DNA of 30,986 nt from a virus, in the IMG/VR virus record IMGVR_UViG_3300021964_012072, positions 1-30,986 of that record; one strand, 5' to 3'. The position numbers and the translations under genes were made by a program. A model generated the notes under the pieces. That model had not been told where the DNA came from, searched no databases, and saw only the letters and a list, made by a program, of their open reading frames with translations. Shown one piece after another: positions 102 through 30,986 of the stretch (its first letter is position 1; every line of letters begins with the position of its first letter).

Positions 102-754
102 TCTATATTATCAGTTAAAACTTTTATAAATCTTACTGTATTTTTAGTTAATTTTTCTTGCTTACCTGACGGATTAATTACAGTATTTTCTGTAAGTAGT
201 GTACGAACTACTTTTATAAAAAATTTATGGAATATAGGAGTATTTTTAAGAGATGAGTTTATTCTATAAAATAAATTTCTATAAATATCATCTCCAATTA
301 CTCCGTGCATGCCGCTCCATAGAACAGTAGTATTACCGTATTTCTTGTCTAATTTAGATTCTAAATGTAATTTTTCTGTATCTTCATATTCTGGATGCAT
401 TCCACCTCTCCAGTATAAATGAGTAGTAGCAACTTGTGTCTGACGTATAAAGCTTGAAAGTAGTAAAGCTGCTAGTCTTTCTTCAGAATTATTAGAACAG
501 TCTACATAACTTTCACATAGTGCGGTAATCCATCTAGCATTAAACTCTTTTGCTATTTCTTTATAATTTCTTTTTACATAGTTAGAAATATCGTTTTCAA
601 AATTAAAAGTAGAGGTAAGTTCTCTATCCCATACTTGAGTTGTAGGAGAATTAGGGCCAAAATTTCTAGTGTAAGCTATATAAGGGTATAGATAGTAGAG
701 GTGTTTATTTGTAGGATCTTTAGGATCTATAGCTTCAAGTTTAGTATTAGACAT
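98..754 (-). CDS. Unrecognised phage protein downstream of tail tube
   Basis: About 218 residues beginning MSNTKLEAIDPKDP. The frame is open further upstream to a TTG at 773-775, but I prefer the ATG at 752-754: the TTG lies against the T-tract of the terminator at 774-797 and inside a promoter-like AT motif (765-772). The protein is rich in aromatic residues in its N-terminal third (LYYLYPYIAY) and contains a WRGGMHPEYED stretch and a basic C-terminal half. I see no signal peptide or membrane segment. In T4-like phages the genes after the tail tube are usually head or tail assembly genes, so a virion assembly role is possible but unproven. Its stop overlaps the next start by 4 nt. Confidence 0.7.
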   Translation of the reverse strand: MSNTKLEAIDPKDPTNKHLYYLYPYIAYTRNFGPNSPTTQVWDRELTSTFNFENDISNYVKRNYKEIAKEFNARWITALCESYVDCSNNSEERLAALLLSSFIRQTQVATTHLYWRGGMHPEYEDTEKLHLESKLDKKYGNTTVLWSGMHGVIGDDIYRNLFYRINSSLKNTPIFHKFFIKVVRTLLTENTVINPSGKQEKLTKNTVRFIKVLTDNIE

Positions 755-1305: not shown

Positions 1306-1320
1306 GTGTTATTATTGCTT

Positions 1321-1332: not shown

Positions 1333-1344
1333 CTAATTAAAAAA

Positions 1345-5545: not shown

Positions 5546-5554
5546 ATTTTAAAA

Positions 5555-9648: not shown

Positions 9649-9947
9649 TATTTAAAAAACTCGTCAGGATGTACTGATCTATCATCTATAAATATATCTC
9701 CGTCAAAGGGTTTGAAATAAAGTTCATGATATTTTACTCCCCAAGCATCTAACTGTGCTCTAGTGATCGGTCCATAGTATTCTTCTCCTCTTCCGCTTTT
9801 ATTTCCTCTAGCAGTATAGAATATAATTATATGCCCATCGTCATACAGTTGATTAATTTTCTTTATTCTATCAGTCCAGGGTTGACGGCTTATAACTGGT
9901 CCTTCTTCTTTGCAAATTGTATTGTCTATGTCTATAATATATTTCAT
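9648..9947 (-). CDS. Small HAD-family phosphatase
   Basis: A 99-residue minimal HAD-fold hydrolase without a cap domain. Motif I is IDIDNTIC with nucleophile D6 and acid/base D8. Motif II threonine is T45 in FYTARG. Motif III is probably K79 in YFKPFDG, and motif IV is the acidic pair in FIDDRS (D88, D89). All four motifs are present, so it should be an active phosphatase. Small HADs of this kind accompany capsule biosynthesis genes, where they release phosphate from sugar or polyol phosphates. It overlaps the ParB-like gene upstream by 4 nt and the next gene by 1 nt. Confidence 0.85.
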   Translation of the reverse strand: MKYIIDIDNTICKEEGPVISRQPWTDRIKKINQLYDDGHIIIFYTARGNKSGRGEEYYGPITRAQLDAWGVKYHELYFKPFDGDIFIDDRSVHPDEFFK

Positions 9948-11032: not shown

Positions 11033-12077
11033 ATACGTATTCTATTGTATTTTCCCAATTTTCAAATCTGTATCCTTTATCATCTATATATACTTTAGCG
11101 TTTGGCTTGCCCCAAACAATATCGTTTACATATTGCTTTATACCGTGTTTTTCTAGCCATTCCCAAGTACCTTGTATACCGTCTTTACCGTTAACAGAAG
11201 GTCTCTCAGGATGTCCTTTGAACGTATATAGTATTATTATATACTTTTCAGAAAGCTTCTTTATAGCATCGATTGCTCCATCTACTGGTTCATCATATAC
11301 AGTGCCATCGTAGTAGCCTTTTGAGTTTTTATGTATTACTCCGTCAAAATCAATAGCTAGTGTGTTTTTAAGTATTTTATCTTGCAACTTACCCCACGAC
11401 TCTACAGTATGACGATTTCTATCTTTATAGACTAACTTTACTAGTTTAAAATCTAACTCAGTATCTACATCTATTAATTCTTCTTCAGGCCAATCTACTA
11501 TATATGTGTAAGGCTCTTTTATTAAGTTAGGAAATAACTCCCAATTATCCAACATATATTTCTTTTTAAACATTACTAAAGAATGAGTAGCTTCTAGTAC
11601 ACCAGGACCGCCTGTTGTTGATAATCTATCGTTTGGTTTAAAGTTTAATGGTAAACTATCGTCGTTCCAATACCAATTTTTCGTCTTTTTGACTGTTATA
11701 GCACTTTCATGAGGAGATGATTTATACCAATCTATAACTTTCTGTATTTTATCTATATCTAAAAAAGGCTGGCAAGCATTTACATTAATAATATAATCTG
11801 ATTTTACATTTTTTAAATGTCTATACATTATAGAGTGATGAGCATTGCCAGGTGCTACTGAGTCATACTCTCTTTTTAATGTATTTATTTTATTATCTGC
11901 TTTATCTATCAATTCTTGATCAAAAGCTGCTAAGTAAACTTCTTCTATATTTTTTAACTTACTAACTTTATCGATAGCTATATCAATCATAGTTGTACCT
12001 CCAATATCTCTTAAATGTTTATTAGGGCAACGAGTACTATCCTTTCTGGCATGTATTATAACTGCTATTGTTTTCAT
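11019..12077 (-). CDS. CMP-sugar synthetase (NeuA/KdsB-like)-HAD fusion
   Basis: A 352-residue two-domain protein. Residues 1-220 form a CMP-sialate/CMP-Kdo synthetase-like cytidylyltransferase: ARKDSTRCPNKHL (10-22, the CTP loop with an R/K pair), GGTTMIDIAI, NVNACQPF (98-105), and IDVDTELDFKLV at the domain end (202-213). Residues 238-345 are a HAD phosphatase: motif I LAIDFDGVIH (D243, D245), motif II YTFKG (T285), motif III GKPNAKVY (K324), and motif IV IDDKG (D332, D333). A plausible role is to make an activated acidic sugar, with the HAD domain acting on its phosphorylated precursor. No NeuB/KdsA-like synthase is in the window, so the precursor must come from elsewhere. It lies 2 nt from the sulfotransferase gene. 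Confidence 0.85.
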   Translation of the reverse strand: MKTIAVIIHARKDSTRCPNKHLRDIGGTTMIDIAIDKVSKLKNIEEVYLAAFDQELIDKADNKINTLKREYDSVAPGNAHHSIMYRHLKNVKSDYIINVNACQPFLDIDKIQKVIDWYKSSPHESAITVKKTKNWYWNDDSLPLNFKPNDRLSTTGGPGVLEATHSLVMFKKKYMLDNWELFPNLIKEPYTYIVDWPEEELIDVDTELDFKLVKLVYKDRNRHTVESWGKLQDKILKNTLAIDFDGVIHKNSKGYYDGTVYDEPVDGAIDAIKKLSEKYIIILYTFKGHPERPSVNGKDGIQGTWEWLEKHGIKQYVNDIVWGKPNAKVYIDDKGYRFENWENTIEYVYGNL

Positions 12078-12079
12078 AA

Positions 12080-12766
12080 TTATTTAAAACTGTAATTAAA
12101 CATTTCTATATCCTCATTAAGTATATTTTGTAGAGAATTTATATCTTTATCAGTCATAACATCATAGTATTTTACGTCTAGTTTATTAGATCTATTTAAA
12201 TGCTGAAGTTTAGTTTGAGGTAATCCTATTTTTTTGCAAATAAAATCGAAATCTTGCTGAAGATTTTCGAACCTACCAATAAAGTCTATATAGGGTAATC
12301 TATCTATATTCCCGCTAAAATGGCCTTTTAAGAAATTAACTTGAGATGCTAAGTGAATATTTTCTCCCATATAATCAAAAAGATTAAAAAATGGTTTACC
12401 GGTTGTTAATGGATCTACATCATTAAATCTTAATTTATTTAAGAATTTTTTTGAGTTCTCTATTTTTTCTTGAGGGTAGTAATAATCAACCCATAAGTCT
12501 TCTAAATTATCTATAGCATAACTTAAAGGATGTTTATTTAAAAACTCTCTAAATTTATACAGAGAATAAAACCTATCCCAAGGATTACGTACAAAAGTAA
12601 ATACAAAATAGTCTTTAAATAAATCTTCATCAAATTTATCATAATGTATCTTAAATCCTTCATATCTAGAATCGACGTCTAATAGATTGTAGAGAGTTTG
12701 TCCAATAGTTACTCCACCAGTTTTAGGTGTATGTAGAAATATAAATTTTTTCTTGTGATTAATCAT
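12080..12766 (-). CDS. PAPS-dependent sulfotransferase (Sulfotransfer_2-like)
   Basis: A 228-residue sulfotransferase. The 5'-phosphosulfate loop is FLHTPKTGGVT (10-20, with K15), and the 3'-phosphate site is FTFVRNPWDRFYSLYKF (56-72, with R60 and S68). IGRFENLQQDFDFIC near residue 180-195 is the conserved C-terminal helix entry. This is the carbohydrate sulfotransferase type, which moves sulfate from PAPS to a hydroxyl or amine of a glycan. The protein has no N-terminal membrane anchor, unlike Golgi homologues, so it is cytosolic. Neighbouring genes suggest the acceptor is a sugar made by this island. PAPS would come from the host. It overlaps the upstream gene by 8 nt. Confidence 0.9.
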   Translation of the reverse strand: MINHKKKFIFLHTPKTGGVTIGQTLYNLLDVDSRYEGFKIHYDKFDEDLFKDYFVFTFVRNPWDRFYSLYKFREFLNKHPLSYAIDNLEDLWVDYYYPQEKIENSKKFLNKLRFNDVDPLTTGKPFFNLFDYMGENIHLASQVNFLKGHFSGNIDRLPYIDFIGRFENLQQDFDFICKKIGLPQTKLQHLNRSNKLDVKYYDVMTDKDINSLQNILNEDIEMFNYSFK

Positions 12767-14488: not shown

Positions 14489-15355
14489 TTATATAATGTT
14501 TTTTGAAACGTAATTGTCGAATTTTAATAAATCGTAATTACTCCAGTCCGTATTCTTATATACAGAGGGTAATTTACTCAAATCTAAATCGGACCATTTT
14601 TTTAATAAATATAATGGAAAATCTTTTGCAAAATGGGCACTATAGTTAGAATCAATCAAAATTGGGATTACTTTTAAATACAAGCATTCCCATAATCTAT
14701 GAGTATCTAGGCCATTACCACTAGGACATAAACAAAATTTATGTTTCTGTAAATCTTGTAAATACTCTTTATAGTCTAAAGAACTATTAATCGTTAAGTT
14801 AAGATTATTTGCTGCTTCTTTACACGATACTCTATACTCAGGCCTCATTCCTCCTTCTACTGTAAAGTTATAGTAGATTTCTTCTGTTTTATCTACTTTT
14901 TCATTTACTACCTCACAGAATGTTTCTAAGTTACCATGTCCCCACCTGCTATTAGCTATACCAATAGGTAGTGGAAATACTTTACGGTGATTAATATTTA
15001 AATTTTGGGTAAATATTCTATCTATGTTAGGTACTTGATTAAGTATACTTAAATTACTGTAATTAAAATCTTGATCTGAATTATGGAGTATTAGAGAAAA
15101 AGAATGTTCGAATGTCTGGAGTTTTATATAAAATTGAGAATCTAATAATTTCTTTTTAGTTAAGTTTAAAAGTGAGCTGTTAGCATAGATAAATTTTGGT
15201 TTAGCATATCTAAATAACTCTGGGTTAAAATTGTCAATATCGTAATTATTATGTATGTTGGCAGATTCAAATTCTTTATGTTCAGCTTTACTAAAAGAAA
15301 TATCAGCTAAGTCTTGAAATTTTTCTCCAGTAATAATGTCTTCCGGTGTTATCAT
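14489..15355 (-). CDS. Exostosin-like (GT47-type) glycosyltransferase
   Basis: A 288-residue protein with a C-terminal half resembling the exostosin GT-B nucleotide-sugar-binding domain: HKFCLCPSGNGLDTHRLWE (205-223), then KVIPILID (228-235) and FPLYLLKKWSDL (246-257). The pattern C-P-S-G-x-G-x-D-x-x-R-x-W-E followed by a V-P-I strand is diagnostic for this group. The N-terminal half contains a PLPIGIANSRWGHG segment (128-141) also typical of phage and capsule members. A donor sugar cannot be predicted. It lies between two SGNH genes, 9 nt and 1 nt away. Start ATG at 15353-15355. Confidence 0.75.
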   Translation of the reverse strand: MITPEDIITGEKFQDLADISFSKAEHKEFESANIHNNYDIDNFNPELFRYAKPKFIYANSSLLNLTKKKLLDSQFYIKLQTFEHSFSLILHNSDQDFNYSNLSILNQVPNIDRIFTQNLNINHRKVFPLPIGIANSRWGHGNLETFCEVVNEKVDKTEEIYYNFTVEGGMRPEYRVSCKEAANNLNLTINSSLDYKEYLQDLQKHKFCLCPSGNGLDTHRLWECLYLKVIPILIDSNYSAHFAKDFPLYLLKKWSDLDLSKLPSVYKNTDWSNYDLLKFDNYVSKNII

Positions 15356-18357: not shown

Positions 18358-20494
18358 CTGTAATTCTTTTAGTTAAGATATTAATGCTATCGTAATTTTT
18401 TATTAAATCACTATTATGCTGTAATGTGTCTTTCATATCAATATACATTTCTAATAGTTCTTCATTTGATTTGCGGCATAGCTCTTCAACAATAAGTAGT
18501 ATTTTTGTAAGTCTACCCCAACCGAATTCTTCTTCATCATAAGATTCATCCCACCATTTACTAAATGTTTTAAAACCAAGCTCTTTTAAATTTTTAAGAT
18601 GTCTTACAGGTCCAAACTGAATAACAGGATGACCGCAATAAATTGGGTTATATGTAGAACTATGAATATGGCATGCATTTTCTACAAAAGGAAAAGCACA
18701 CATAACAGTGCTAATTAAAGTATTTTTGTAATGAACTGGGTTAAAAGGTAGGTCAGCGTCAAACTTTCCTACTCCTATACCAGGAGGTCCGTGATTATCT
18801 TTATCAGTCTCGTCTATATCAAAAGGTATCTTAGCTATAAGAGAATCTATATTATCTTGACCAGTAAGATCTGGAAACCAGTCAAATAAGTCATAATCTT
18901 TATTATAGTTATTAAAGCTAATTTTGAATCTATTATAGAGATTTAATCTATTAATGAAAAGCATAAAGATATTTCTTTCAGGTCTACAGGTACGATTAAC
19001 TTTAAGAAAAGATTTAATCTTGTTTATGTTCTCTTTTTTATACTCTATTTCTTTATCAATATTTACTTCTTCTGGTAAGTGTCCTAAGCTAATTAATCTC
19101 TTAACATCGTATATATTCCAAGGAAAAGAGATTACGTTTATTTTTTCTTCTTTGTAAGATTTATCAGCTAACCATTTAGTATGTGTTTCTTCAGCTATTA
19201 AATTACTAGTAACATAAGTAATATAATTCGGATTAATATCTAAACTATGTAAAGATTTATACAAACTTTCGTAAAATTCTTCTGCTTTGTCTCCTTCTAA
19301 ACTATTGTCTAAAATTAATCTGCAGTTATTATTACGTAATGCAGATAGTACATAGTCTGGAAGTAAATTTAAATGTTTAGCAGCTAGCCAGTTGTGATGA
19401 TGTAATGTAACAAAGTAATAAAACTTAGTGTCCGGTATAATGTTATCAGGAGATATTTTAGTAAAGTCTAATACGTGAGGTAAATCAGATTGAGAAAATA
19501 ATGGTCTACAAATTCTTTCGCCTCTAGCATCTTCTTCATTTATTTCTGGAATATCTTTATATATTTCTAATAACTCAGGATCTGGGGCGTGTAAACTTGC
19601 TTGGTTAAACTTATCCATTACAAAGTAGTTCTGTTTCTGCCCTAACGATTTTGAAATATTGTCAGCTATAAATGTTGCCCATTTATTATGTCCAACTTCT
19701 GTAGGATGGTAATCTAAAAATTCAGTATTGTAAATTTTTTCTAGTTCAACAATATAATTTTTAAAACTAGTAGTAATGTAATTAGTTTTAAATATAGAAT
19801 TAAACTCTTCTACGTTTTCTTTTAAATCAATATTATTTAACCAGCTTTGATTTTGTGAATGTCTATTAAAATAACGGTTAATAAATCCATATAAACTCGG
19901 ACTATTTCTTAAATTATGAATACCTTCAGATTTATCTAATACTGTAGACTTATCTTCATAAAATGCATTAAAAAAGGTAAACTTTATATTTTTACTTTTA
20001 AGATATCCTGCTAAAAGATTATTTTGATTGATAAATCTAGTAATATACTCTTCTTCGTTCCAGTACTTTGTAGTGTATATTTTATAAAATACATCGATAT
20101 CAGGATCTTCATCTTTATAGTGATCTAATTCAGCAGGATAAAGTATATCCCAAGAACCCCTTTCTTTAGTCTTATAAAAAAAGTCTTTTCTTTCAGGAGA
20201 CGTCCATCCTATAACAACGTATATTTGTTCAGGAGTATATTCCTTTAAAAGTTTAGGTATATCATTTAAGGTTCTTCTTATGATTCCATCGTTAGATGAA
20301 CCAGCTGAACTATTATTTAAAACACTTATGCCAAGTTGTTTAGCGGCCATATGAGGCCATACTCTTGGTAACCTGTAAGCATCGTTATCTGGGTGATTAA
20401 CATGCCAAGGTTGGTCTTTAAAACGTATAGGGTCTACTATATCTCCAGCAGTCCAACTATCTCCATTAGCGTAAAGTATTTTTACATCATCCAT
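18350..20494 (-). CDS. SGNH hydrolase-glycosyltransferase fusion
   Basis: A 714-residue protein, the largest non-structural gene here. Residues 1-285 are an SGNH domain: GDSWTAGD (11-18, nucleophile S13), block II NSSAGSSNDG (61-70), and DYHPTEVGH (261-269, D261 and H263). Residues about 355-714 form a second domain. The core ACHIHSSTYNPIYCGHPVIQ (607-626) is followed by FGPVRHLKNLKELGFKTFS and a WWDESYD end (648-653). That pattern, of an Ile-His-Ser-Ser strand, G-HP-VI and GFKTF...DESYD, resembles GT10-type and related phage glycosyltransferases. One polypeptide would thus transfer a sugar and edit or acylate it. No membrane segment. It overlaps both neighbours (8 and 13 nt). Confidence 0.75.
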   Translation of the reverse strand: MDDVKILYANGDSWTAGDIVDPIRFKDQPWHVNHPDNDAYRLPRVWPHMAAKQLGISVLNNSSAGSSNDGIIRRTLNDIPKLLKEYTPEQIYVVIGWTSPERKDFFYKTKERGSWDILYPAELDHYKDEDPDIDVFYKIYTTKYWNEEEYITRFINQNNLLAGYLKSKNIKFTFFNAFYEDKSTVLDKSEGIHNLRNSPSLYGFINRYFNRHSQNQSWLNNIDLKENVEEFNSIFKTNYITTSFKNYIVELEKIYNTEFLDYHPTEVGHNKWATFIADNISKSLGQKQNYFVMDKFNQASLHAPDPELLEIYKDIPEINEEDARGERICRPLFSQSDLPHVLDFTKISPDNIIPDTKFYYFVTLHHHNWLAAKHLNLLPDYVLSALRNNNCRLILDNSLEGDKAEEFYESLYKSLHSLDINPNYITYVTSNLIAEETHTKWLADKSYKEEKINVISFPWNIYDVKRLISLGHLPEEVNIDKEIEYKKENINKIKSFLKVNRTCRPERNIFMLFINRLNLYNRFKISFNNYNKDYDLFDWFPDLTGQDNIDSLIAKIPFDIDETDKDNHGPPGIGVGKFDADLPFNPVHYKNTLISTVMCAFPFVENACHIHSSTYNPIYCGHPVIQFGPVRHLKNLKELGFKTFSKWWDESYDEEEFGWGRLTKILLIVEELCRKSNEELLEMYIDMKDTLQHNSDLIKNYDSINILTKRITGE

Positions 20495-21201
20495 TCTTTT
20501 CTAAATATTATAGGGTGATTACCATTTTCGGATAAATCCATAATTCTGTAAGGAGTAGTGTCTTTAAAGTCACCTGTATATATAGGAATATTTTCAGGGT
20601 TCTTAGCTATAGGAAGAAATTTATCGAAGTCGGAAAAGAATAATTTACAGTATTCATCATCAAGGTAACTTTCTTGTAGATGTAGAATATCTATATCTCC
20701 TATAAAAACATGGTTATGATCTTCTACTATCCTATTAGCTGCACCTATCCATAGCATACTAAAGCTATAGTCACATAAATTAGAACAGTCTCCTTCTTTT
20801 ATATCTCCTTTATATTCTGCTATAAACTTATTATCTCTTCTCTTAAGTATAAACTCAATAGGTTTATTATAATCTTCTTCTGAGATAATAAATTGTATTT
20901 GTTTTATCTCCATTCCATCTAAATTCTTAACCCAGTACTCAAAAGATACTGATCTATAGCTATCTCCTTCATGAGTAGTATGTGCTTCTACCATAACTCC
21001 CATATGGTGTCCGTTTTTACCTACTACACACCCTACATACCTGTTATGTTCATCATATCTACTTTCCATAGTCCCCCAATCAGGAGTAAATCTAACTAAT
21101 ATAGTACTATCTTTTGTCAAAAAATCTTTTGAAAGATTATTAATCAGTTCGTTCTTATTAGCTACTTCGAAAACGTAGGATTCTTTTTCGTTAAATTTCA
21201 T
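20482..21201 (-). CDS. Stand-alone LamG/ConA-like lectin protein
   Basis: A 239-residue, mainly beta protein with a concanavalin A-like fold by pattern. It has a central VVGKNGHHMGVMVEAH stretch, then FSMLWIGAANR followed by VFIGDIDILHLQESYLDDE, which is the usual LamG ending (IG..., F-x-G-x-I-D, helix). The extreme C-terminus has DLSENGNHPI, the DLSGNGNH-type tail also found at the end of the LamG insert in the protein at 24043-25470. It has no enzyme motif, so it may bind the glycan being built or position another enzyme. It directly follows the radical SAM gene (4-nt overlap) and two LamG-bearing glycosyltransferases. Confidence 0.6.
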   Translation of the reverse strand: MKFNEKESYVFEVANKNELINNLSKDFLTKDSTILVRFTPDWGTMESRYDEHNRYVGCVVGKNGHHMGVMVEAHTTHEGDSYRSVSFEYWVKNLDGMEIKQIQFIISEEDYNKPIEFILKRRDNKFIAEYKGDIKEGDCSNLCDYSFSMLWIGAANRIVEDHNHVFIGDIDILHLQESYLDDEYCKLFFSDFDKFLPIAKNPENIPIYTGDFKDTTPYRIMDLSENGNHPIIFRKEWMM

Positions 21202-22640
21202 CTATTAAGTTTTAATGTATAGTCATAAAAATCTGCTAGTTCTGGGAATGTTTTTTTAAAGTCTGTTCCTCTTCTTTCGTCATGTGCTTTGAAAAATCTA
21301 CCAAAGTTTTTTCGTTGATTAAGTAATCTTTTTTCATCTTTGATTGCTAGCATCCAATCATAAGATCTAATAATTTTTTGAATCTCTACATCAGAATAAC
21401 CTATATACTGGTAATCGAATCTCGGCATACCTAAAAAGTCAGCATGTTGTGCACATTTTTTTATCTCTTTAGCCCATTTAGATGGTAGTACTTGTAGAGT
21501 TTGATGAGATGGATGACGAAGATAAGAAGAGTCTAAGAAGACTGGTGATTGCCAATATCTATCGTTTGAATGGTATTCTTTTTTAAGATCATATACACCG
21601 TTAATAAGTTTTTTATAAGAAGGAGCTGATAAAGCATTAAATGTTGACATTATAGTAATGTTAACTCTTGGGCATTTTGATAATACCTTGTGCATATTAT
21701 CCCAAAATTTATTAAATACTAAACCGTTTCTAATATATTCTGCTTGCTCACCCCATCCATCTACAGAAGTAAAAATAATAAACTCATTTACTCTATCTTC
21801 ATCAGTTATTTTATTAATTTTATCTATAAATTTATCAACTAAATTATCAGGAATACCTAAGTTAGAGTTTATAGCTAAATTTAGTTTCTTATTAGGATTA
21901 GGTTCTTCTAGTATATAGTCTAATACTTTCCAGGTATCTTTAGAGAGCAACGGTTCTCCACCTGTTATCCTGAATGTATGTAGGTCTCTATACAGTTCAG
22001 GCCACCATTCCCAAAATGCTTCTACATAAGGGTTATGTTCAGTATGATGAATAGGCATTTTACCGGCTGCTTTTAAGTATTCTACATCATTAAACTTTTC
22101 GTCAGTTGGGTAAGCTCCGTACTTATTAGCTTCTGCTGCCCATTTAGAAGAGAAAGAAGGTCCACAGTAAGAACATGCAAAGTTACATTGATTAGAAAAA
22201 GCTACTTCTACATATTTAGGGTTAAAATCAGCTCTCCAATCTCCTTCAACTATTTCTTTAAAATGAGGTTTAGACCAGCTTTCATTAGACTTAAAGACTC
22301 TATCTGAGAATCTGTTAGAATTATCTTCTACGTTCCAGCAGTAATCACATTCAGCAGGTCTTTTACCTTCTAACATCTCTTTCCTCTTCTGCTTTTTGAA
22401 TCTCGTGTTATGTAATGCTGAAGGGTTCCTTTTAAGTTCTCTTAATGGAATTTTATGAGTAGAAGGGTGGTGACAAGAGTGAGTTTCTCCCATCTGTAAG
22501 TGAATGGTTACTTGAGTCCATTTAGCTAAACACATACCGCATCCGATACTATCTAAACTTTTTTTAGTGTTTACGTAGTCTGGATTATCAAATGTATTAT
22601 CTGATTTTACTACTTTAATTACTTCTTGTTTTTCACTCAT
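21198..22640 (-). CDS. Twitch-type radical SAM protein
   Basis: A 480-residue radical SAM protein. The cluster-binding motif is C152-NFA-C156-SY-C159, with ITGGEPL (224-230) downstream. About 145 residues precede the core and hold an unusual cysteine set (C34, C37, C56, C98, C101), including CGMC and CDYC pairs that could ligate an auxiliary iron-sulfur cluster. The extra cysteines are thus N-terminal instead of C-terminal. Members of this twitch-type group are common in viruses and uncultured marine bacteria, and their substrates are unknown. It overlaps the LamG-GT7 and LamG genes by 4 nt each, pointing to a common substrate. Confidence 0.85.
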   Translation of the reverse strand: MSEKQEVIKVVKSDNTFDNPDYVNTKKSLDSIGCGMCLAKWTQVTIHLQMGETHSCHHPSTHKIPLRELKRNPSALHNTRFKKQKRKEMLEGKRPAECDYCWNVEDNSNRFSDRVFKSNESWSKPHFKEIVEGDWRADFNPKYVEVAFSNQCNFACSYCGPSFSSKWAAEANKYGAYPTDEKFNDVEYLKAAGKMPIHHTEHNPYVEAFWEWWPELYRDLHTFRITGGEPLLSKDTWKVLDYILEEPNPNKKLNLAINSNLGIPDNLVDKFIDKINKITDEDRVNEFIIFTSVDGWGEQAEYIRNGLVFNKFWDNMHKVLSKCPRVNITIMSTFNALSAPSYKKLINGVYDLKKEYHSNDRYWQSPVFLDSSYLRHPSHQTLQVLPSKWAKEIKKCAQHADFLGMPRFDYQYIGYSDVEIQKIIRSYDWMLAIKDEKRLLNQRKNFGRFFKAHDERRGTDFKKTFPELADFYDYTLKLNR

Positions 22641-24046
22641 AACTTTATGTTAAGCATTTTAGCCCATGGTGTAAGTTTTTCTTCACTTACTAATTCATAC
22701 TTGACTTGTGCAATACCATCTTGCTTATAATCTATTTTGTCCTGTTGCATTTGTAATACATATCTTCTTTCATTAGCAGCAGTAGTTTCTCCTTTTGCCC
22801 ACTTACCGTTAACCAGTCCTTCGTCTTTATGATGCAAACATCTCATACGTCCGTCTTTTCTATGTGGTATGATAGAGTTTGGAACTCTTATATCTTCTTC
22901 TACAAAGTCTATATTTTTAAGTTTATGGTTAGTAGTAGGATTATTAAAATCTAAATCTATAACTAAATCCTCTGAAGGTAAATTATTATGTAAGTTTTTT
23001 ACCTCATCTGGAGATAAGCATCTTTTCCATGCAAATACTTTTGCTATATCACCTTTTAAATGCTTGAGAGGACTACCGTCTTTTTGGGATGGAGTAGAAC
23101 CTAAATAGATAGGTTTGTTACCGTAAGGTTTTAATTTACCGTTAAACTTTAAAGGTGAAGGACTACCGTGTCCTGCTTTAGAATCTACTTCTGAACCGTT
23201 TAAATAAAAGTGAGTAAGTTTATTATCTGCATCTATTGTTACTGTAACCCAGCTCCACTGTCCATCATACCTTTTTAACCACATATAGTTATGAGCACTA
23301 AATATATTCCAGAACGTAAATGATAAAGCTCTTGAATTATTGAATGATAAACCATAATCATAACCTGGTATCCTTAAGATAGGGTATTCAACGTATTCGT
23401 TCTTTTTATCTCCTATTAGAAAGATTTTTTTCTCTTTAGGTTTCTGAAATACTCTACATAAAACTGATATCGTATGAGATTCAGTGGTTAATCCTCTGGT
23501 ATCTTTAGTAAGTGGAATTTCAATAGATGTATCTACACCGTTAAATTTAGCATACTTCTGTGTAAAAGCTTTGGCATCTAGAAAGGTATCATTAGTAAAT
23601 CCTTCTTTATGACATCTCCAAAACAAATCATCATCTTCCATACCCCAATCCCAGTAGTTATTAGAATATCCGTTAGTAGCTTCTACTTGCTCTTTTGAGA
23701 ATATAACTGCTCCACCAAAATATTCGTGATATTTAAGCTTATATTCCATTTGAGATATTTTAGTAGCTATATGAATAGGGTATTTATCTGGAAATGAATA
23801 ATCAGCTCCTTCTTCTGGGATCATATCTATATCATGCCAAACTATATAATCACAGCCTTCTTCGAAAGCATGTTTAGCAGCTATATTTTTTGTTGCTCCT
23901 CTGTTAAATAATTTATCGTCGATTTGATGACAGAAATACATTTGAAAATCTATACCCTGTTGTTTTAAGTACTTACCTACTTTAGGTACAAACTCATTCA
24001 AGTGTAATTCTCTATCTCTATATGGTACACAAACTCCTAGTTTCAT
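22637..24046 (-). CDS. GT7 galactosyltransferase-like enzyme with internal LamG domain
   Basis: A 469-residue protein. Residues 1-160 match the N-terminal part of beta-1,4-galactosyltransferase (GT7): CVPYRDR (6-12), FNRG (47-50), the DxD equivalent HDID (71-74), FGG (110-112), and NGYSNNYWDWGMEDDD (125-140). About residues 165-385 are a LamG/ConA-like domain, starting AKFNGVDTSIEIP and ending LKGDIAKVFAWKRCLS. Residues 388-469 return to GT7: GRMRCLHH, AANERRY and DGIAQVKYELVSEE match the C-terminal strand region of the GT7 fold. The lectin domain therefore seems to be nested inside the catalytic fold. The donor is likely a UDP-sugar with Mn2+. It overlaps its paralogue by 4 nt. Confidence 0.85.
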   Translation of the reverse strand: MKLGVCVPYRDRELHLNEFVPKVGKYLKQQGIDFQMYFCHQIDDKLFNRGATKNIAAKHAFEEGCDYIVWHDIDMIPEEGADYSFPDKYPIHIATKISQMEYKLKYHEYFGGAVIFSKEQVEATNGYSNNYWDWGMEDDDLFWRCHKEGFTNDTFLDAKAFTQKYAKFNGVDTSIEIPLTKDTRGLTTESHTISVLCRVFQKPKEKKIFLIGDKKNEYVEYPILRIPGYDYGLSFNNSRALSFTFWNIFSAHNYMWLKRYDGQWSWVTVTIDADNKLTHFYLNGSEVDSKAGHGSPSPLKFNGKLKPYGNKPIYLGSTPSQKDGSPLKHLKGDIAKVFAWKRCLSPDEVKNLHNNLPSEDLVIDLDFNNPTTNHKLKNIDFVEEDIRVPNSIIPHRKDGRMRCLHHKDEGLVNGKWAKGETTAANERRYVLQMQQDKIDYKQDGIAQVKYELVSEEKLTPWAKMLNIKL

Positions 24047-25470
24047 ATTCCTACTGTAAAATGATATACGTTATTAACATTACTTTCTCCATGAACTACA
24101 TAATCTAAAGTGTTAAGACCTTCTTGTCTATACGTTCTGTTACCTGTTGTCACTTCGTTTGTAAACCTTAACTGGTTCCATCTAGTTAACTGGTCTTTCC
24201 ATCTACCTCCTAAGTATCCTCCAGGTTTATGATCTAATAGTTTAAAGGTACATTTACGTCTGAAAGGTATGGCAACTTTTGAAAAGTTATTAAATTCAGT
24301 ATCTGTTATTTCAGCCTTAATAATTTTACCGTTATTACTATTATCTGTTAAATCTACTAATTTATACCTTTTTATAAACTTAGGATCATAGTACGTAATA
24401 AGACTATCACAAGATTTATAGTTACCAAAATTAGTAGTTAATCCTAAACTTTGATTTTTAGTTAATGCTGTTACTTCAGCTTTATTTAAACTCTTATTAA
24501 ATATAGCAAACGTATCTATCTCTCCTTTAAAGTAACTAATTTCTCGATTAGCATCTTCTACTCTACTACTACAGCCAATATAAGCAGTTTTATACTTACC
24601 ATAACTATAAAGAGATTCTTCGATAACTTTTTTACCTATTAGTTTACCATTAACATAACAAGCAAGAGTTTTTTTAGCTTTATTCCAAGTTACTATAAGC
24701 TTATTATGCTGAGGTTCACATATTTCAGATACTATACTTTGTATGTTACCTCTACGATCGAATATTTCGATATTATACCTCTTAAAAGAATCGTAATAAA
24801 TACTAAATTCATAACCAGGTACGCTAAATAAAGGATAAATATCTACTGGTTTGCTATGATCTAAAGTTAAATTAGGTATCTTATGTGAGATTAAAATAGA
24901 AAAACTTCTATTGTAGTTAATTATATTATCACTTTCTATATATGCATCAATACCGTTAAATTTTAATGATGCTGTAGAAGATACGTAACTAGGTTTATTG
25001 TATGTATCTACTTCAATATTGGCTTGTATAAGTCTATTGAAGAGATCATCGTCTTCGAACCCCCAGCCCCAGTAATCATTAGAGTAACCATTAATCTTTT
25101 CAAAATCACTCAAAGGAAATAATGTTACTCCCCCGAAATACTTTTCAAAGTGCATATCTATAGTTTTACTATTAGATAAAAAATTATAGGCTAAATGTAA
25201 AGGTTTTTCACTAAATGAATAATCTACATCATAAGGAAGCATATCTACATCGTGAAAACAAACATAATCGCATCCAAGCTCTTTTGCTTTTACAGCTCCA
25301 ATATTGAGAAGTTTACCTCTGTTGAAAGAGGTAGCATCATCTTGTTCTATAACTAAAAGCTTGTAATCTATATCTTCATCTTTAAAGTATTCAGCTACTG
25401 CACTTTTAAAATGAACTAACTGTCTATACCTATTTCTATAGGGTACAATAATTCCAAGAATATGAGACAT
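24043..25470 (-). CDS. GT7 galactosyltransferase-like enzyme with internal LamG domain
   Basis: A 475-residue paralogue of the next gene. GT7 motifs: VPYRNR (9-14), FNRG (49-52), HDVD (73-76), FGG (112-114), and NGYSNDYWGWGFEDDD (127-142), nearly the same as in animal beta4-galactosyltransferases. A LamG-like domain occupies about 168-395, from LKFNGIDAYIE through TWNKAKKTLACYVNGK and YFKGEIDTFAIF to a DLTDNSNNGK tail. The GT7 C-terminal piece then resumes at 398-475, with LLDHKPGGYLGGRW and EGLNTLDYVVHGES, equivalent to the DGLNSLxY region. It is cytosolic, without the membrane anchor of Golgi homologues. Sequence divergence from its partner in the LamG part suggests different ligands. It overlaps the 72-aa gene by 1 nt. 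Confidence 0.87.
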   Translation of the reverse strand: MSHILGIIVPYRNRYRQLVHFKSAVAEYFKDEDIDYKLLVIEQDDATSFNRGKLLNIGAVKAKELGCDYVCFHDVDMLPYDVDYSFSEKPLHLAYNFLSNSKTIDMHFEKYFGGVTLFPLSDFEKINGYSNDYWGWGFEDDDLFNRLIQANIEVDTYNKPSYVSSTASLKFNGIDAYIESDNIINYNRSFSILISHKIPNLTLDHSKPVDIYPLFSVPGYEFSIYYDSFKRYNIEIFDRRGNIQSIVSEICEPQHNKLIVTWNKAKKTLACYVNGKLIGKKVIEESLYSYGKYKTAYIGCSSRVEDANREISYFKGEIDTFAIFNKSLNKAEVTALTKNQSLGLTTNFGNYKSCDSLITYYDPKFIKRYKLVDLTDNSNNGKIIKAEITDTEFNNFSKVAIPFRRKCTFKLLDHKPGGYLGGRWKDQLTRWNQLRFTNEVTTGNRTYRQEGLNTLDYVVHGESNVNNVYHFTVGI

Positions 25471-25692: not shown

Positions 25693-26529
25693 CTAAATTT
25701 TAACTATTTTATCAATTAACTCATTCCAGTATGAGTAGTCATTATATACAATATATGAATTATTTTTTAATTTTTCAACTAAATATTCAAGATTATGTAT
25801 GTCTATTTTCCAGTCACTTCTTGCTATAGATCTATACATTCTACTATATTCTTCGTGATAACTATATTTCTGTTTAGTTTCTGATACATCTAACAATCTT
25901 TCTAAAACAGATGAATCCCATTTAAAGTGATGAACTTGAGTAAAACACTCTTCTATAGGCATTCTTTTAGGATGACTTCTACCCCAGCTGTTAGTATCAC
26001 CGAACTTTGCATAATGCTGTCCAGGTGTTACTTCTTGATAGCCTTTCATTAAAGTAACTTTATTAGGACAAGCGCCAGACATAGGATATCTAAAAAATCC
26101 TGCTAAAGGAAAAGCCTTGATAATATCCGTATCTCTCTCAACTTTAGGAAAACTGCCTTCAGTACCTATTCTATCAATAAACCCTCCGGTAACAAAGTCA
26201 TATCCATTATTATCACAGTGTTTAATGATATCTTCTAATTTGTCTGGGTATACTTGTAGTTCATCGTCATCAGATACTATCCACCAGTCTTTTGGTTTCT
26301 TAGACTTTACTGTATTGTATATATGAGTAACTCTTTCCCAGTTATACTTTTTATCTGTTACAACCCAAAAAGGTTTTATTCCTAACTCTTCGATTTCTTC
26401 TAATATACCGTCATCATCATTTTGTCTATAAACGACTACATAAGTTTTATCTACCTTATCTTCATAGTGTTTTAACATATGAGGTAAGATATGAGTATTA
26501 CTACCCACTACTGTAACTAAATTAGGCAC
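25693..26529 (-). CDS. GT-A glycosyltransferase (GT2/GT92-like)
   Basis: A 278-residue transferase. The start is GTG at 26527-26529, inside a 13-nt overlap with the SGNH gene; no upstream ATG fits. The donor-binding motif is DWWIVSDDDELQVYP (81-95), with the DDD triad in the DxD position. It is followed by GGFIDRIGTEG, SGACPNKVTLMKG, and QVHHFKWDSSVLERL, where the His pair after a beta strand is the usual third metal ligand region. This order (DDDE...F/Y, N-K-V, H-x-K-W) is that of stand-alone transferases in the Glyco_tranf_2_4/GT92-like group. Donor and acceptor are unknown. Confidence 0.8.
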   Translation of the reverse strand: MPNLVTVVGSNTHILPHMLKHYEDKVDKTYVVVYRQNDDDGILEEIEELGIKPFWVVTDKKYNWERVTHIYNTVKSKKPKDWWIVSDDDELQVYPDKLEDIIKHCDNNGYDFVTGGFIDRIGTEGSFPKVERDTDIIKAFPLAGFFRYPMSGACPNKVTLMKGYQEVTPGQHYAKFGDTNSWGRSHPKRMPIEECFTQVHHFKWDSSVLERLLDVSETKQKYSYHEEYSRMYRSIARSDWKIDIHNLEYLVEKLKNNSYIVYNDYSYWNELIDKIVKI

Positions 26530-27170
26530 GGTTTTACAAAATCTTTTAAGTTAATTTTATTTAAAATATAATTAGCAAACTGCTTGTGACCATTCCAACT
26601 AAAGTGATCTGGATCAGTTATTATATTATTAGTATGTTCTCTTATACTTTCAAAATTGTTTTCTTTTTCCCATACTTTATAATCCCATATAAAAGTATAA
26701 ATTTTTTTATTAAACATTTCCATAGAAAGATTTTTAAATAGATTAAAATAGTATTCATTCCATCTTTTTTGATAAGGCTCAATAAAATAGTTTCTAAAGT
26801 CAGTTATTGTACTTTTCTTTTCCTGATCAAAAGGTGTATCGTGTTCTACCTCTGGTCCATTTGTAGAAGTAATAATAGGATAATCTAAAGAAGGTACTAA
26901 AAGTCCATAAGGATAAGTTGTACCTAAGATTATATAATCTCCTTTTTTAAAGTTTTTAATATTATTAATGTATACTCCTAAACTGTACGGATTTGAGCCG
27001 GCTATTTTTCCTAAGTTATTTTCTACCATATTAAGCTCTTCTGATACTATTTGTGTCCATATTTTTCCGTGAGCTCTTTTTGTGTACTCGTAATATTCAA
27101 AATTACGACCCGGTCGGCAACCGTAACCGTAAGTAAAACTATCTCCTATAAACCAGATTTTATTAGGCAC
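26517..27170 (-). CDS. Short SGNH/GDSL-type hydrolase
   Basis: A 217-residue SGNH protein, the shortest of the five SGNH domains here and the most canonical. Block I is FIGDSFTYGYG (8-18, nucleophile S11). The catalytic block is DPDHFSWNGH, with D186 and H189 spaced D-x-x-H as in textbook members. The start is GTG at 27168-27170, in an 8-nt overlap with the methyltransferase gene. It is an esterase or deacylase candidate and has no signal peptide. The start region shares the 10-mer CGTGCCTAAT with the next gene's start. Confidence 0.8.
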   Translation of the reverse strand: MPNKIWFIGDSFTYGYGCRPGRNFEYYEYTKRAHGKIWTQIVSEELNMVENNLGKIAGSNPYSLGVYINNIKNFKKGDYIILGTTYPYGLLVPSLDYPIITSTNGPEVEHDTPFDQEKKSTITDFRNYFIEPYQKRWNEYYFNLFKNLSMEMFNKKIYTFIWDYKVWEKENNFESIREHTNNIITDPDHFSWNGHKQFANYILNKINLKDFVKPCLI

Positions 27171-27921
27171 GCTGTAATAAAGTTAATCCTGTAGAAGCTG
27201 GTTTTCTTGGAGCTATACCGGTATTAAAAAAATTAAACTGTTTCCATTCAGGTCCTATCTCTTTTATAAATTTTGGAGGACCATCAAAAAATTCATAATA
27301 TTCTTTTTCATCTTCAGTAATAATAAGTTCTTTCTGATATTTTTCATCTGTATCATGAATCGATATCATACCTTTAGGTTTTAAAAGAGTAGAATATAAT
27401 TCAAAATCTTGTTTTACATCTTCATATGAATGTCCAGCATCTATATGCAAAAAGTCTATTTTTATATCTTTTTTTACAAAATAATTATAAAAAGCATTTT
27501 TTGTAGTATCTTTTATAAATCTAGGACTAAATTGATACCTAAAAAAACTATCATCATCAGCATAGTCTACTTTACCTCCTACTCCATTTACTGCATCTAC
27601 TAAATAAGTCTCTCCTATATCACCGTGGTTATAATCTTTATCTCCTTCAAATATACCTTGATCATGTAGATCTAATCTAGCTTGAGTCATTATACGAGGA
27701 ATAAATCCCCCGCCTGAGCCTAGACATACACATGTTTTATATCTCATTAGCTGAATAATAGAGTAAATTAAAAGTCCGTCTCCTAAATGATAGTTAGTTG
27801 CTCCATGAGTCCAAGTATAAGGTACTACATTGAGTTCAGTTCTCTTAACTCCATTCTCAATAACTTCTTCTGGATTATGAGTAATAAAGTGGTTTACAAA
27901 TATTTTATCTAGTATGCTCAT
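27163..27921 (-). CDS. SAM-dependent methyltransferase (Methyltransf_24-like)
   Basis: A 252-residue class I methyltransferase. The SAM-binding glycine loop is CVCLGSGGGFIP (64-75). The characteristic IDFLHIDAGHSYEDVKQDFE region (155-174) carries the D-x-G-H-x-Y-E signature of the Methyltransf_24 group. It is followed by LLKPKGMISIHD (179-190), where the aspartate closes the active site. Enzymes of this group methylate hydroxyls on sugars, lipids or small molecules and occur in O-antigen clusters. Its start overlaps the preceding stop by 1 nt. Confidence 0.85.
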   Translation of the reverse strand: MSILDKIFVNHFITHNPEEVIENGVKRTELNVVPYTWTHGATNYHLGDGLLIYSIIQLMRYKTCVCLGSGGGFIPRIMTQARLDLHDQGIFEGDKDYNHGDIGETYLVDAVNGVGGKVDYADDDSFFRYQFSPRFIKDTTKNAFYNYFVKKDIKIDFLHIDAGHSYEDVKQDFELYSTLLKPKGMISIHDTDEKYQKELIITEDEKEYYEFFDGPPKFIKEIGPEWKQFNFFNTGIAPRKPASTGLTLLQRA

Positions 27922-28793
27922 TACTTAAGTGGTATGCTTGTTAGATCTAAGTTAGGAAAATTAATGCAATTATACAAATGAGACATTTCTCTTTCGTAAT
28001 TTTGATCTGCTTTATTATCTTTTATCCACCCTTTTAACGGTCCGTAATGCTTAAAGTATACTTCTGATTCATATATCGACCATACTCCTTTGTCATGATC
28101 TTCTCCCCATTCCCATTTTTTGCAGTCCCACGTTGTAGATATAATACTTCTATGTTCTATATTCTCTTTTACAAATAAATGCTTTAAAAGTAATTGTTCT
28201 GCAAATATTAGATACTGTGAGTGGGGTACTCCCATAGTAGAAAACTCTTCCATCATCTTTAAACTTTCGTTAGCGTACCTTCTAGTAAAGTCAGAATTAG
28301 GTAGATTTAAAAAACCTACATTTACAGATTCTGTTTTCCATCTAGTTTTATATGAAAGTTCTCTTACTTTTGGATCTATTGCAGTTGGATAATACCCTTT
28401 TCCTTTTTCAAAATTACATACATAATGAATATCTAAATCTAAAAAATCTTTTATTCGTCTATAAACATGTGTATCGTTATCCATTATAATTGTAGGATAA
28501 TCTATATTCGATAAAACTTCTAATTTAGAAGCTGCCCAAAATACATCTTTATTAATATTTCTATTAGATTTAGGTAAAAGCAGAACTCTATCAAAAAAGT
28601 CTAAAACTTTTAATCTATCTAAAGTATCTATAGTTAAATTATCGCCATTAAGTATACATGTATCTTCTGGATGATTTTTTTTCCATAAATGTACTGAAGC
28701 TAGTAGTAGAAGAATGTTTAGTTTACTATCTACATAGTAATCATTAGAATTTTTATTCTTCTTAATATTTTCTAAAACCCAATTTACAATCAA
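27921..28793 (-). CDS. Putative glycosyltransferase, DUF6734-like
   Basis: A 290-residue protein. The frame opens with TTG at 28791-28793, preceded by AAGG at short spacing; no ATG is available near the conserved N-terminus, so the start is uncertain. Seen motifs are FWAASKLEVL (85-94), IIMDNDTHVY (102-111, a D-x-D-like triad), ESVNVGFLNLP (155-165), a YLIFAEQLLL helix and KHYGPLKGW near the end. This order resembles the uncharacterised DUF6734 family, which looks like a GT-A transferase. It is the first gene of the glycan island, 17 nt after the InlB-like virion-type gene. Confidence 0.55.
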   Translation of the reverse strand: MIVNWVLENIKKNKNSNDYYVDSKLNILLLLASVHLWKKNHPEDTCILNGDNLTIDTLDRLKVLDFFDRVLLLPKSNRNINKDVFWAASKLEVLSNIDYPTIIMDNDTHVYRRIKDFLDLDIHYVCNFEKGKGYYPTAIDPKVRELSYKTRWKTESVNVGFLNLPNSDFTRRYANESLKMMEEFSTMGVPHSQYLIFAEQLLLKHLFVKENIEHRSIISTTWDCKKWEWGEDHDKGVWSIYESEVYFKHYGPLKGWIKDNKADQNYEREMSHLYNCINFPNLDLTSIPLK

Positions 28794-28810: not shown

Positions 28811-29284
28811 TTATCCTCCGCTATCAGTTGGATCAATATGTGTCGAACTAAAGTGTGCGTAAAAAACAGTTACACCTGTATGATCAGTTTCTGTTAAAGA
28901 TAACGTTGCATTTGTACTTAATTGAGTACCACCTCCATCTGCTGCATCTCTCCATGAATCAAAAGTATAAGGGTAAACAGCTGTTGCGACTAAAGATAAA
29001 GAGTAATCATCAATTAATATATTCTTAACAGTAAACGATGTAGTATTAGCAACCGTATACGGAGCACTAAGTGCGACTCCTCCTCCAGTACCAGCTATTA
29101 CTTGTCCATAGAATATAGCTGAGTTAGGTGCTATTTCTGAGACTTGAAAAGGTGCTGCGTTAGCTGGATCAAATTCACTTAAGGAGCTTGATAAAGATGT
29201 GTTAGCTTGAGCTGATACGTTGTTAGCCCAAGTGTTAAAAGTTCCTAATGAAATATCGTTTGCTCCGTAGGTAAATACTGCCAT
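28811..29284 (-). CDS. Putative virion protein with InlB B-repeat-like C-terminus
   Basis: A 157-residue, Ser/Thr/Ala-rich protein, by composition a beta-structural virion or fibre-associated component. Residues about 98-146 (AVYPYTFDSWRDAADGGG, then STNATLSLT and VTVFYAHF) resemble the divergent InlB B-repeat, whose usual pattern is GYxFxxW...G...T...A.F. This small beta domain is common in surface adhesins and some phage fibres. The first 90 residues include NTSLSSSLSE. It lies 1 nt after the 183-aa gene and before the glycan genes. Its many exposed hydroxyl residues make it one possible acceptor for glycosylation, which is only inference. Confidence 0.6.
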   Translation of the reverse strand: MAVFTYGANDISLGTFNTWANNVSAQANTSLSSSLSEFDPANAAPFQVSEIAPNSAIFYGQVIAGTGGGVALSAPYTVANTTSFTVKNILIDDYSLSLVATAVYPYTFDSWRDAADGGGTQLSTNATLSLTETDHTGVTVFYAHFSSTHIDPTDSGG

Positions 29285-29285
29285 C

Positions 29286-29837
29286 TTACTTTACTGTAAT
29301 AATTTTATTTTCTGGTAGATTCGAAATTAAGTTCAATTTCAACTTAGAATAGCAAAACTCCATAATATTAGTTAATAGAGAAGTATCGATTACTTCTAAC
29401 AATTCTATTTTAGTTCCTATTTTTTTTCTTTCTTCTCTAACCACTTTTCTATATTTAGTTATCTCATCTCCATTTTCATCGAAGCTTACATAAGGTACTT
29501 CTTGTTCTGTTGATACGACTCCATACTCTGGTGTCTCTACTTCCTTTGCAACTGTTAGCGGTACTTTAAAATGGTGAGGGAACATAATCTCTATACCGTC
29601 ACTATTATCATCTTTAAAGTAAAGCACTCTTTCCTGTATCAATCCCACTGCACTCCTCTTTGGCTCGTTTATCGAAGTTCTATTATACCTTATTGCATGA
29701 TCTCTGTCCTGCCAGTAGGTAACCTGAAACTTCACAAAACTTGTAACTTTGTTGAATGAAAAACTTTCTACTCGTGCATACACTTCGTGAGAAGGTCCTT
29801 CACTTGTTTCCAAGTCAACATCTAAAATAAAACCCAT
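29286..29837 (-). CDS. Unrecognised phage protein next to tail fibre
   Basis: A 183-residue protein with no family that I recognise. Its N-terminal half looks beta-rich (SFSFNKVTSFVKFQVTYWQ), and its middle is charged and helical with many Glu/Lys (KYRKVVREERKKIG). The C-terminus is helical (LLTNIMEFCYSKLKL). It starts 15 nt after the tail fibre stop and runs 1 nt into the next gene, so it is likely made with the fibre. A fibre-attachment, baseplate or chaperone role is possible. Confidence 0.65.
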   Translation of the reverse strand: MGFILDVDLETSEGPSHEVYARVESFSFNKVTSFVKFQVTYWQDRDHAIRYNRTSINEPKRSAVGLIQERVLYFKDDNSDGIEIMFPHHFKVPLTVAKEVETPEYGVVSTEQEVPYVSFDENGDEITKYRKVVREERKKIGTKIELLEVIDTSLLTNIMEFCYSKLKLNLISNLPENKIITVK

Positions 29838-29852: not shown

Positions 29853-30986
29853 TTATTTATTTTCTAGCTCTTTTACTTTAGCAGAAAGCTCTTTAACTGC
29901 TTGTATTAATACTGCTGTTAATTTATCATATTTAACAGCTTTATATCCATTATCTCTATTTTCAACTAATTCAGGTATTACTTCTTCTACGTCCTGTGCT
30001 ATTACTCCTATGTCATGTCCTGAATATACACTTTGTTTATCGTTCCAGTCAAAAGATACTCCTCTTAGTTTTTCAACTTTATCTAAAGCATTGCTAATTT
30101 CAGCAACATTATCTTTTAATCTTTCATCTGAAGAAGCATAAGCTACAACATCTCCTCCTGCAAATACATCTCCTTGTATACCTACACCTCCAGTTACTTT
30201 AACAGCTCCTGTTGTTTTACTGGTTGATGCTGTATTATTAGATACTGTTACTGCTGCTGAGAATGTTTTAGCTCCACTAAATGTTTGAGCACCACTCAAG
30301 TGAGCTGTATTAGATGATAAGTATGCATCTGCTATTGCAGTACCGTTCCATGTACCAGTAGTAATAGTCCCTACATCGGTAATTAATAATCCATTAATAT
30401 CTGCTTGAGTCTGATCGGCAGTTGCTCCAGTTTCAATACCGTCTAGCTTTGTTTTATCTCCATTTGCAAAAGCACCTTCCGATGGTTTTACTTGTAATGT
30501 AGAAATTGTTACGCCTTTGATACCTACAAGGTCAGTTACTTCCGTATCCATTAAAGCTCCTGCTGCTGTTACATTAGTTGAATCAGTTACATCTGCATTA
30601 GCTTCTATTCCATTTAGTTTTGTATGATCTGCGTCTGTAAATACATTTGAATCAGTAGCCGCTTCTACGGCTGCTCTTATTTCAGCATCAGTTTGATCTG
30701 CTGTTGCAGAAGATTCGATACCATTTAATTTAGTATGATCTGCGTCTGTAAATACGTTTGAGTCTGTTGCTGCTTCAACTGCTGCTCTAATTTCTGCATT
30801 TGATTGATCTGCTGTTGCTCCTGATTCTATACCGTCTAATTTAGTTCCGTCTGATGCTACGTCTCTTCCATCTACTGTTCCTGTTAGGGTAATGTTACCT
30901 GCTGCATGAACATCGTCTGAGAAGTTAAATCTTGAGTTTCCGTTATCCCAAGTAATAGATTCGTTAGCACCACTAATAAATAATCC
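29853..30986 (-). CDS. Tail fibre/spike protein, 3' part, with Peptidase_S74 chaperone
   Basis: The frame stays open to the window edge, so this is the C-terminal 377 residues of a longer fibre; a Met codon at 30549-30551 is internal. It contains tandem 37-residue repeats of the ADHTKLNGIE...GATADQ type, then Thr/Ser/Ala-rich beta-strand repeats (SGAQTFSGAKTFSAAVT). The last 92 residues form a Peptidase_S74 intramolecular chaperone. The S74 site is SDERLK with the cleavage serine encoded at 30129-30131. GHDIGVIAQDVEEVIPELV follows, and the C-terminus is a short coiled coil. Such chaperones trimerise the fibre and then cut themselves off. This is the likely receptor-binding protein or its stalk. 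Confidence 0.92.
   Translation of the reverse strand, partial: GLFISGANESITWDNGNSRFNFSDDVHAAGNITLTGTVDGRDVASDGTKLDGIESGATADQSNAEIRAAVEAATDSNVFTDADHTKLNGIESSATADQTDAEIRAAVEAATDSNVFTDADHTKLNGIEANADVTDSTNVTAAGALMDTEVTDLVGIKGVTISTLQVKPSEGAFANGDKTKLDGIETGATADQTQADINGLLITDVGTITTGTWNGTAIADAYLSSNTAHLSGAQTFSGAKTFSAAVTVSNNTASTSKTTGAVKVTGGVGIQGDVFAGGDVVAYASSDERLKDNVAEISNALDKVEKLRGVSFDWNDKQSVYSGHDIGVIAQDVEEVIPELVENRDNGYKAVKYDKLTAVLIQAVKELSAKVKELENK
30606..30827 (-). repeat. Two 111-bp tandem units in the tail fibre gene
   Basis: Two full 111-bp copies (30606-30716 and 30717-30827), in frame, each encoding 37 residues around EIRAAVEAATDSNVFTDADH and a following KLNGIE. A partial third copy begins at 30828, and a further degenerate KLDGIETGATADQ occurs downstream near 30435. 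The DNA copies differ at many third positions while the protein stays alike, so the repeat is old and kept by selection. It would form the elongated shaft of the fibre. Confidence 0.85.

Follow-up and report, generated by a model that had tools for sequence, protein, structure and literature searches.

How can a GT7 glycosyltransferase accommodate a lectin-like domain, and what would such an enzyme do in a virus? The question is raised by two adjacent genes in the window (the whole stretch of DNA analysed, a virus record of 30,986 bases, read as one strand). Both genes are on the minus strand: P1 (22637-24046, 469 aa) and P2 (24043-25470, 475 aa) overlap by 4 bases, and a first-pass annotation of the sequence had read them as GT7 enzymes with a LamG domain inside the catalytic fold. 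The positions of the two ORFs proved exact, and Pfam supports both parts of the assignment. Glyco_transf_7N (curated cut-off of 27) matches P1 with E 1e-15 (58 bits) and P2 with E 2.6e-17 (63 bits), and Glyco_transf_7C (curated cut-off of 23) matches them with E 2.6e-19 (69 bits) and E 1.3e-21 (76 bits), respectively, all within residues 1-160. The Laminin_G_3 matches (cut-off of 27.6) come after, at residues 182-350 in P1 (E 7.4e-13, 49.3 bits) and 218-333 in P2 (E 2.5e-10, 41.1 bits). The best solved relatives of the two proteins are B4GALT7 and B4GALT1 (phmmer against the PDB, E about 1e-26 to 1e-27), NCBIfam holds no model matching either of them, and PHROGs gave only marginal matches.

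Both proteins divide into the same three parts. The N-terminal GT7 catalytic part of P1 (residues 1-153; 23588..24046, minus strand) matches PF13733, PF02709 and the solved B4GALT7 and B4GALT1 (E 1e-26), and contains the motifs VPYR, FNRG, DID, EYFGG and YWDWGMEDDD, with motif conservation in 102/102 P1 proteins; its counterpart in P2 (residues 1-156; 25003..25470, minus strand) matches the same two Pfam families and, best in the PDB, B4GALT1 (E 2.6e-27). The inserted LamG/ConA-like jelly-roll covers residues 154-392 of P1 (22871..23587, minus strand) and 157-401 of P2 (24268..25002, minus strand). The C-terminal GT7 segment follows at residues 393-469 of P1 (22637..22870, minus strand), with the motif DGIAQVKY, and 402-475 of P2 (24043..24267, minus strand), with LLDH and EGLNTLDY. 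The first-pass annotation had thus rightly placed a LamG-like domain in mid-protein, with limits (~165-395) that needed adjustment, and had correctly reported DGIAQVKY in P1 but misread the motif of P2 as DGLNTLDY.

The C-terminal segment is where a nested domain can be told from an appended one. In six insert-free bacterial GT7s (from Parachlamydiaceae, Planctomycetota, Sneathiellales, Caenispirillum and Proteobacteria), the EDDD helix runs directly into a segment with a conserved Arg, Gly, Leu-x-His and DGL, and in the alignment P1 and P2 carry this same stretch after ~240 extra residues. Profiles of the C-terminal ~78 residues, compared by hhalign with the C-termini of the insert-free bacterial proteins, gave probabilities of 97.4% (P1) and 97.9% (P2), and in hmmsearch with both C-terminal profiles the six true proteins all outscored all of 1,200 shuffled decoys. 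Profile and structure comparisons were needed here because single-sequence search is too weak at this end: an HMMER search of the PDB, made after deleting the LamG in silico, gave only a second domain of -1.7 bits at the C-terminus and no significant extension. The AlphaFold2 models (pLDDT 91.6 and pTM 0.86 for P1; 93.4 and 0.89 for P2) align end to end with bovine B4GALT1 (1tvy), the LamG being excluded as a separate lobe: residues 1..469 of P1 with 180..398 (212 residues, Z 27.3, rmsd 2.0) and residues 1..475 of P2 with 178..398 (215 residues, Z 26.9, rmsd 2.4). The models thus show a GT7 fold that is completed by the C-terminal segment, and a middle part that is ConA-like, so neither of the outcomes that the first-pass annotation had named as refuting it occurred. 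Sequence, insert-free relatives and the two structure models all bear out the claim that the lectin is nested, and the C-terminal homology together with the models rules out that it is appended. We consider it well supported that P1 and P2 have a complete predicted GT7 fold interrupted by a LamG/ConA-like domain of ~240 residues.

The point of insertion can be located by alignment with GT7s of bacteria and other viruses that lack the insert (mostly of 194-255 aa). In B4GALT1 numbering, the acceptor helix with its short strand ends at about residue 336, and the insert comes between this end and the strand toward Met344/His347. The site corresponds to the tip of a beta-hairpin and precedes by a few residues the metal-ligand His and the long mobile acceptor-site loop. 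Judging from the strand of ~8 residues, about 25 Angstrom would separate the root of the LamG lobe from the metal. P1, P2 and the vertebrate and insect B4GALT1/B4GALT7 (CAZy GT7) share the GT-A fold throughout the catalytic domain (Z mostly 24-27, 27-35% identity over the aligned part), along with the DxD, W(D/G)WG-EDDD, Tyr289 and His347. Unlike these enzymes, P1 and P2 have neither a transmembrane nor a stem region, carry the jelly-roll in the hairpin before His347, and have a replacement of the metal ligand Met344 (Leu, Cys and others in the aligned proteins). The nearest insert-free relatives by sequence are bacterial and viral GT7s (e.g., L140 of Parachlamydiaceae and the viral L163), which have the compact catalytic domain complete with its C-terminal segment, but as a rule keep to the length range given above, lack LamG and were not seen as a tandem pair.

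Most residues of the active site are preserved. The equivalents of the DxD, Arg228, Trp314, Glu317, Asp318, Asp319 and His347 of B4GALT1 (the last being His406 in the C-terminal segment of P1) are intact in all 102 P1 proteins. In P2, the DxD and Asp318 are found in 117/117 proteins, His347 in 116, Trp314 in 114 and Glu317 in 105. Since the catalytic residues are retained, P1 and P2 are predicted to be active GT7 enzymes, a point against this being the replaced metal ligand Met344. Tyr289 is the residue that selects UDP-Gal in B4GALT1, and its replacement permits the use of UDP-GalNAc. Its equivalent is present in all 219 P1 and P2 proteins, a retention that hints at a preference for UDP-Gal and suggests this as the likeliest donor.

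What, then, would the pair do? The explanation we favour, to which we give as a whole a probability of about 0.5 and within which we infer activity, donor, LamG ligand, acceptor and target, is that of a coupled pair of active GT7s whose LamG lobe holds the acceptor and whose target is a phage glycoconjugate. P1 and P2 would be metal-dependent, inverting transferases, probably using UDP-galactose. The jelly-roll, inserted in the hairpin that links the acceptor helix to the metal-His strand, would bind the acceptor glycoconjugate away from the active site and hold the chain or decorated protein for sugar addition, and the two paralogues, P2 and P1, would add residues in turn within a conserved row of genes. 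The target would be a glycoconjugate built by this row beside the tail-fibre gene, i.e., the fibre or another virion protein. The role of the lobe is modelled on the appended lectin domains of the ppGalNAc-transferases. In these enzymes (GT27, C-terminal ricin-type lectin) and in plant GT31 galactosyltransferases (N-terminal galectin domain), an own lectin domain guides the choice of acceptor, which makes them a working analogy, although in both the lectin is at one end of the protein, has another fold and belongs with another glycosyltransferase family.

The structure and conservation of the lobe bear on this role. The inserts of P1 and P2 match the LamG of PAPP-A, 4dqa and pentraxins (CRP, SAP, PTX3) with Z 17-22 (17-21 for P1; for residues 165-401 of P2, 22 to the PAPP-A LamG), and 4dqa, a putative carbohydrate-binding protein, is a near-best match (Z 21.8 for P2 and 19.6). 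Those jelly-rolls are free-standing or appended, whereas the one of P1 and P2 is tied at both ends into another fold. The insert is less conserved than the catalytic part, with median identities of 48 vs 81% in P1 and 31 vs 58% in P2, and a mean top-residue frequency in P1 of 0.59 vs 0.84 in the N-terminal part. About 50 positions of the P1 insert are nonetheless at least 90% conserved, many of them polar or aromatic (including H191, D230, N236-N237-S238-R239, W246, Y254, W256, K258-R259-Y260, W264, W266, N283 and D288), and thus suggest that the P1 lobe has a real ligand. The P2 insert retains few residues beyond the structural ones. We rejected this asymmetry as evidence that the two lobes differ in role, since conservation across P2 as a whole is lower by about the same proportion. 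The fast evolution of the insert and the sparse conservation in P2 are also compatible with a scaffold whose role is weak or variable, which calls for caution regarding the explanation we favour. The earlier suggestion of a carbohydrate sensor for the growing chain or the acceptor is a reasonable one, with the proviso that LamG/pentraxin folds bind proteins too.

This proviso leads to a serious rival, in which the lobe would be a protein-protein module that joins P1 to P2, to neighbouring enzymes or to the fibre, and binds no sugar. Several proteins of the PAPP-A LamG/pentraxin type, which provide the closest solved folds, act through protein contacts and oligomers, and nearly every contig has P1 and P2 as a coupled pair. 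Yet LamG/ConA-like domains are also common binders of carbohydrates, 4dqa scores near the best, and the inserts of P1 and P2 are only 19% identical, which fits different ligands. We regard such a structural or complex-forming lobe as possible but rather unlikely.

The genes surrounding the pair are also conserved. The order [183 aa]-[157 aa]-DUF6734-Methyltransf_24-GT2-P2-P1-radical SAM is constant in nearly all of 53 loci, as far as the flanks extend. All these genes are on the minus strand in the window. Downstream of P1 lies a twitch-domain radical SAM protein (21198..22640; NCBIfam NF033640, 353.8 bits for a cut-off of 170), which overlaps P1 by 4 bases and has a homologue in 51/53 loci, normally directly downstream of P1. 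The upstream neighbour of P2 encodes a GT2-type glycosyltransferase (25693..26529; Glyco_tranf_2_4, E 4.4e-7; 50/53 loci), and farther upstream lie a Methyltransf_24-type methyltransferase (27163..27921; Pfam E 1.1e-10; 47/53 loci), a DUF6734 protein (27921..28793; Pfam E 2.2e-8; 41 of 53 loci) and two small ORFs of 157 and 183 aa (28811..29837; homologues in 38 and 35 loci) with no family match in Pfam, NCBIfam or PHROG. The 157-aa protein (28811-29284) is rich in Ser, Thr and Asn and is regularly found between the fibre and the sugar genes; it might be a virion protein. Past the radical SAM gene, the window also encodes a free-standing LamG-like protein without a catalytic part (20482..21201, minus strand), which has no Pfam match and has homologues in 9/53 loci, some of them matching the profile of the insert. 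Such a protein occurs downstream of the radical SAM gene in L006 (7833-8555), L046 (7769-8476) and others.

At the other end, the row abuts a tail-fibre gene (29853..30986, minus strand), which continues past the end of the record. Its C-terminal part matches PHROG tail families (E 1e-45 and weaker) and ends in a Peptidase_S74 intramolecular chaperone (PF13884, E 1.8e-19). Among the 21 contigs having an S74 match, 20 have this fibre end on the same strand, 2.5-5.7 kb upstream (mostly ~4.1 kb). The probability of this arrangement is ~1e-25 under uniform placement, a calculation that ignores the shared ancestry of related, and hence not independent, contigs; the proximity to the fibre is therefore conserved synteny and not chance. 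The transferase genes thus lie next to a candidate for the modified structural gene, the S74 fibre, as in a virion-glycosylation module. The regularity with which the row follows the fibre gene makes the fibre, or a small virion protein encoded nearby, our preferred target. This proximity fits glycosylation of the fibre without proving that the fibre is the substrate.

Elsewhere in the window, a T4-like tail tube and sheath (820-3066) are followed by a long stretch of genes on the minus strand, many of which relate to sugars. Situated between the tail genes and the transferases, those at 4523-12077 include aminotransferase, radical SAM/SPASM, nucleotidyltransferase and cytidylyltransferase genes, and probably constitute a nucleotide-sugar pathway. 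A Sulfotransfer_2 sulfotransferase (12080-12766) and a protein weakly similar to exostosin GT47 and RXYLT1 (14489-15355) belong to the same sugar cluster and resemble, though in a phage, the glycan enzymes of animals. Judged by its tail sheath, the virus is closest among cultured phages to Flavobacterium phage immuto (66.6%), which suggests that Flavobacteriia are the first hosts to consider; the annotated genes adjoining the sheath of immuto include no such sugar cluster.

The main rival concerning the target is that the pair modifies a surface glycan of the host (lipopolysaccharide, capsule or S-layer) during infection, e.g., blocking superinfection, and not the virion. Phage-encoded transferases that alter the O-antigen of the host are well known and provide a precedent, and the nucleotidyl- and cytidylyltransferase, aminotransferase, sulfotransferase and GT47-like genes would fit a whole glycan pathway. 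Set against this are the position of the row directly after the tail-fibre gene, on the same strand, and the conserved neighbours, among which neither a membrane anchor nor an enzyme of lipid carriers was recognised. We regard modification of the host surface as likewise possible but rather unlikely, and retain a phage glycoconjugate as the target in the explanation we favour.

How widespread is the architecture? A database search returned 238 distinct nested ORFs, in which >150 residues separate GT7N from GT7C, with a common insertion point and nearly all in IMG/VR contigs, together with 26 insert-free viral GT7 ORFs, mostly of 194-230 aa. The nested ORFs mostly occur as a translationally coupled tandem pair: in 54 of 90 pairs the start of P1 lies 4 bases within P2, and in a further 20 it lies 1 base within it. 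Such pairs are carried by many uncultured viruses of aquatic origin. In a tree of the GT7 core, inserted and uninserted forms separate with three label changes, and a single origin of the insertion is not rejected (p-AU 0.43), so the tree is compatible with one LamG insertion event. Neither P1, P2 nor an insert-free viral GT7 had a match in cultured phages (tblastn, 50,697 phage records); the tail sheath, searched as a control, matched 2,604 of the same records. Three nested loci (L137-L139) are in contigs of bacterial MAGs, with the same kind of gene row and no viral hallmark among the scanned ORFs, and may be of either viral or cellular provenance. The short contigs L236, L238 and L239 (Pelagibacterales and Flavobacteriales MAGs) carry the nested pair and part of the row, again with no viral hallmark among the scanned ORFs, and could be either misbinned virus or a cellular copy. 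In L043 (4992-6402), the P1 homologue is split by a frame change into ORFs of 396 aa and 100 aa, by gene breakage or sequencing error, and in L207 (2344-3636) and L217 (2332-3645) a viral GT2 domain is fused to an insert-free GT7 in one protein.

Some viruses encode a third LamG-nested GT7 upstream of P2 (L047:1772-3226, L191:239-1942, L159:1016-2578, L200:1216-2676 and L165:1179-2660; also L221, L222, L231, L232 and L235), and its insert is homologous to those of P1 and P2 along 205-250 columns. In several of them Glu317/Asp318 are lost (e.g., HW or EY for ED), which suggests a third paralogue that is non-catalytic in these viruses. One could extend this to P1 and P2 themselves, as former enzymes turned into virion- or fibre-associated lectins that bind through both GT7 and LamG, for which the His/Trp found in place of Glu317/Asp318 in the third paralogue gives some ground, but the catalytic residues of P1 and P2 are nearly invariant across 219 ORFs and we judge this very improbable. 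An assembly chimera or a chance juxtaposition of domains has a negligible probability, given one architecture with one insertion point in 238 distinct ORFs from independent contigs, and was rejected.

GT7 and LamG are each well known, and a GT7 with a nested LamG is, as far as searched, a new combination that we did not find as a described family. The best 50 matches in the BFVD library of viral structures included no entry apparently covering both domains, and a keyword search of the literature (open-access papers, exact words) found no description of such a family; like the search of the cultured-phage collection, they leave uncontradicted the first-pass view that the arrangement is undescribed. 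The GT7 enzymes known so far are mainly those of animals, in which surface loops or a separate partner (alpha-lactalbumin) determine the acceptor. In P1 and P2, a lectin-like domain is fixed in the catalytic fold, near in sequence to the acceptor-site loop. We tentatively put forward, as a reading somewhat less probable than the explanation we favour, a widespread viral GT7 family in which the inserted lectin lobe would read the chain or the fibre, and two (sometimes three) proteins would cooperate in a self-contained fibre-glycosylation machine of aquatic phages. If LamG reads the acceptor, nature would have designed here a glycosyltransferase of programmed specificity, ready for use as a tool in glycan synthesis, and the tight link with the tail fibre makes the sugar-coating of receptor-binding fibres by aquatic phages directly testable.
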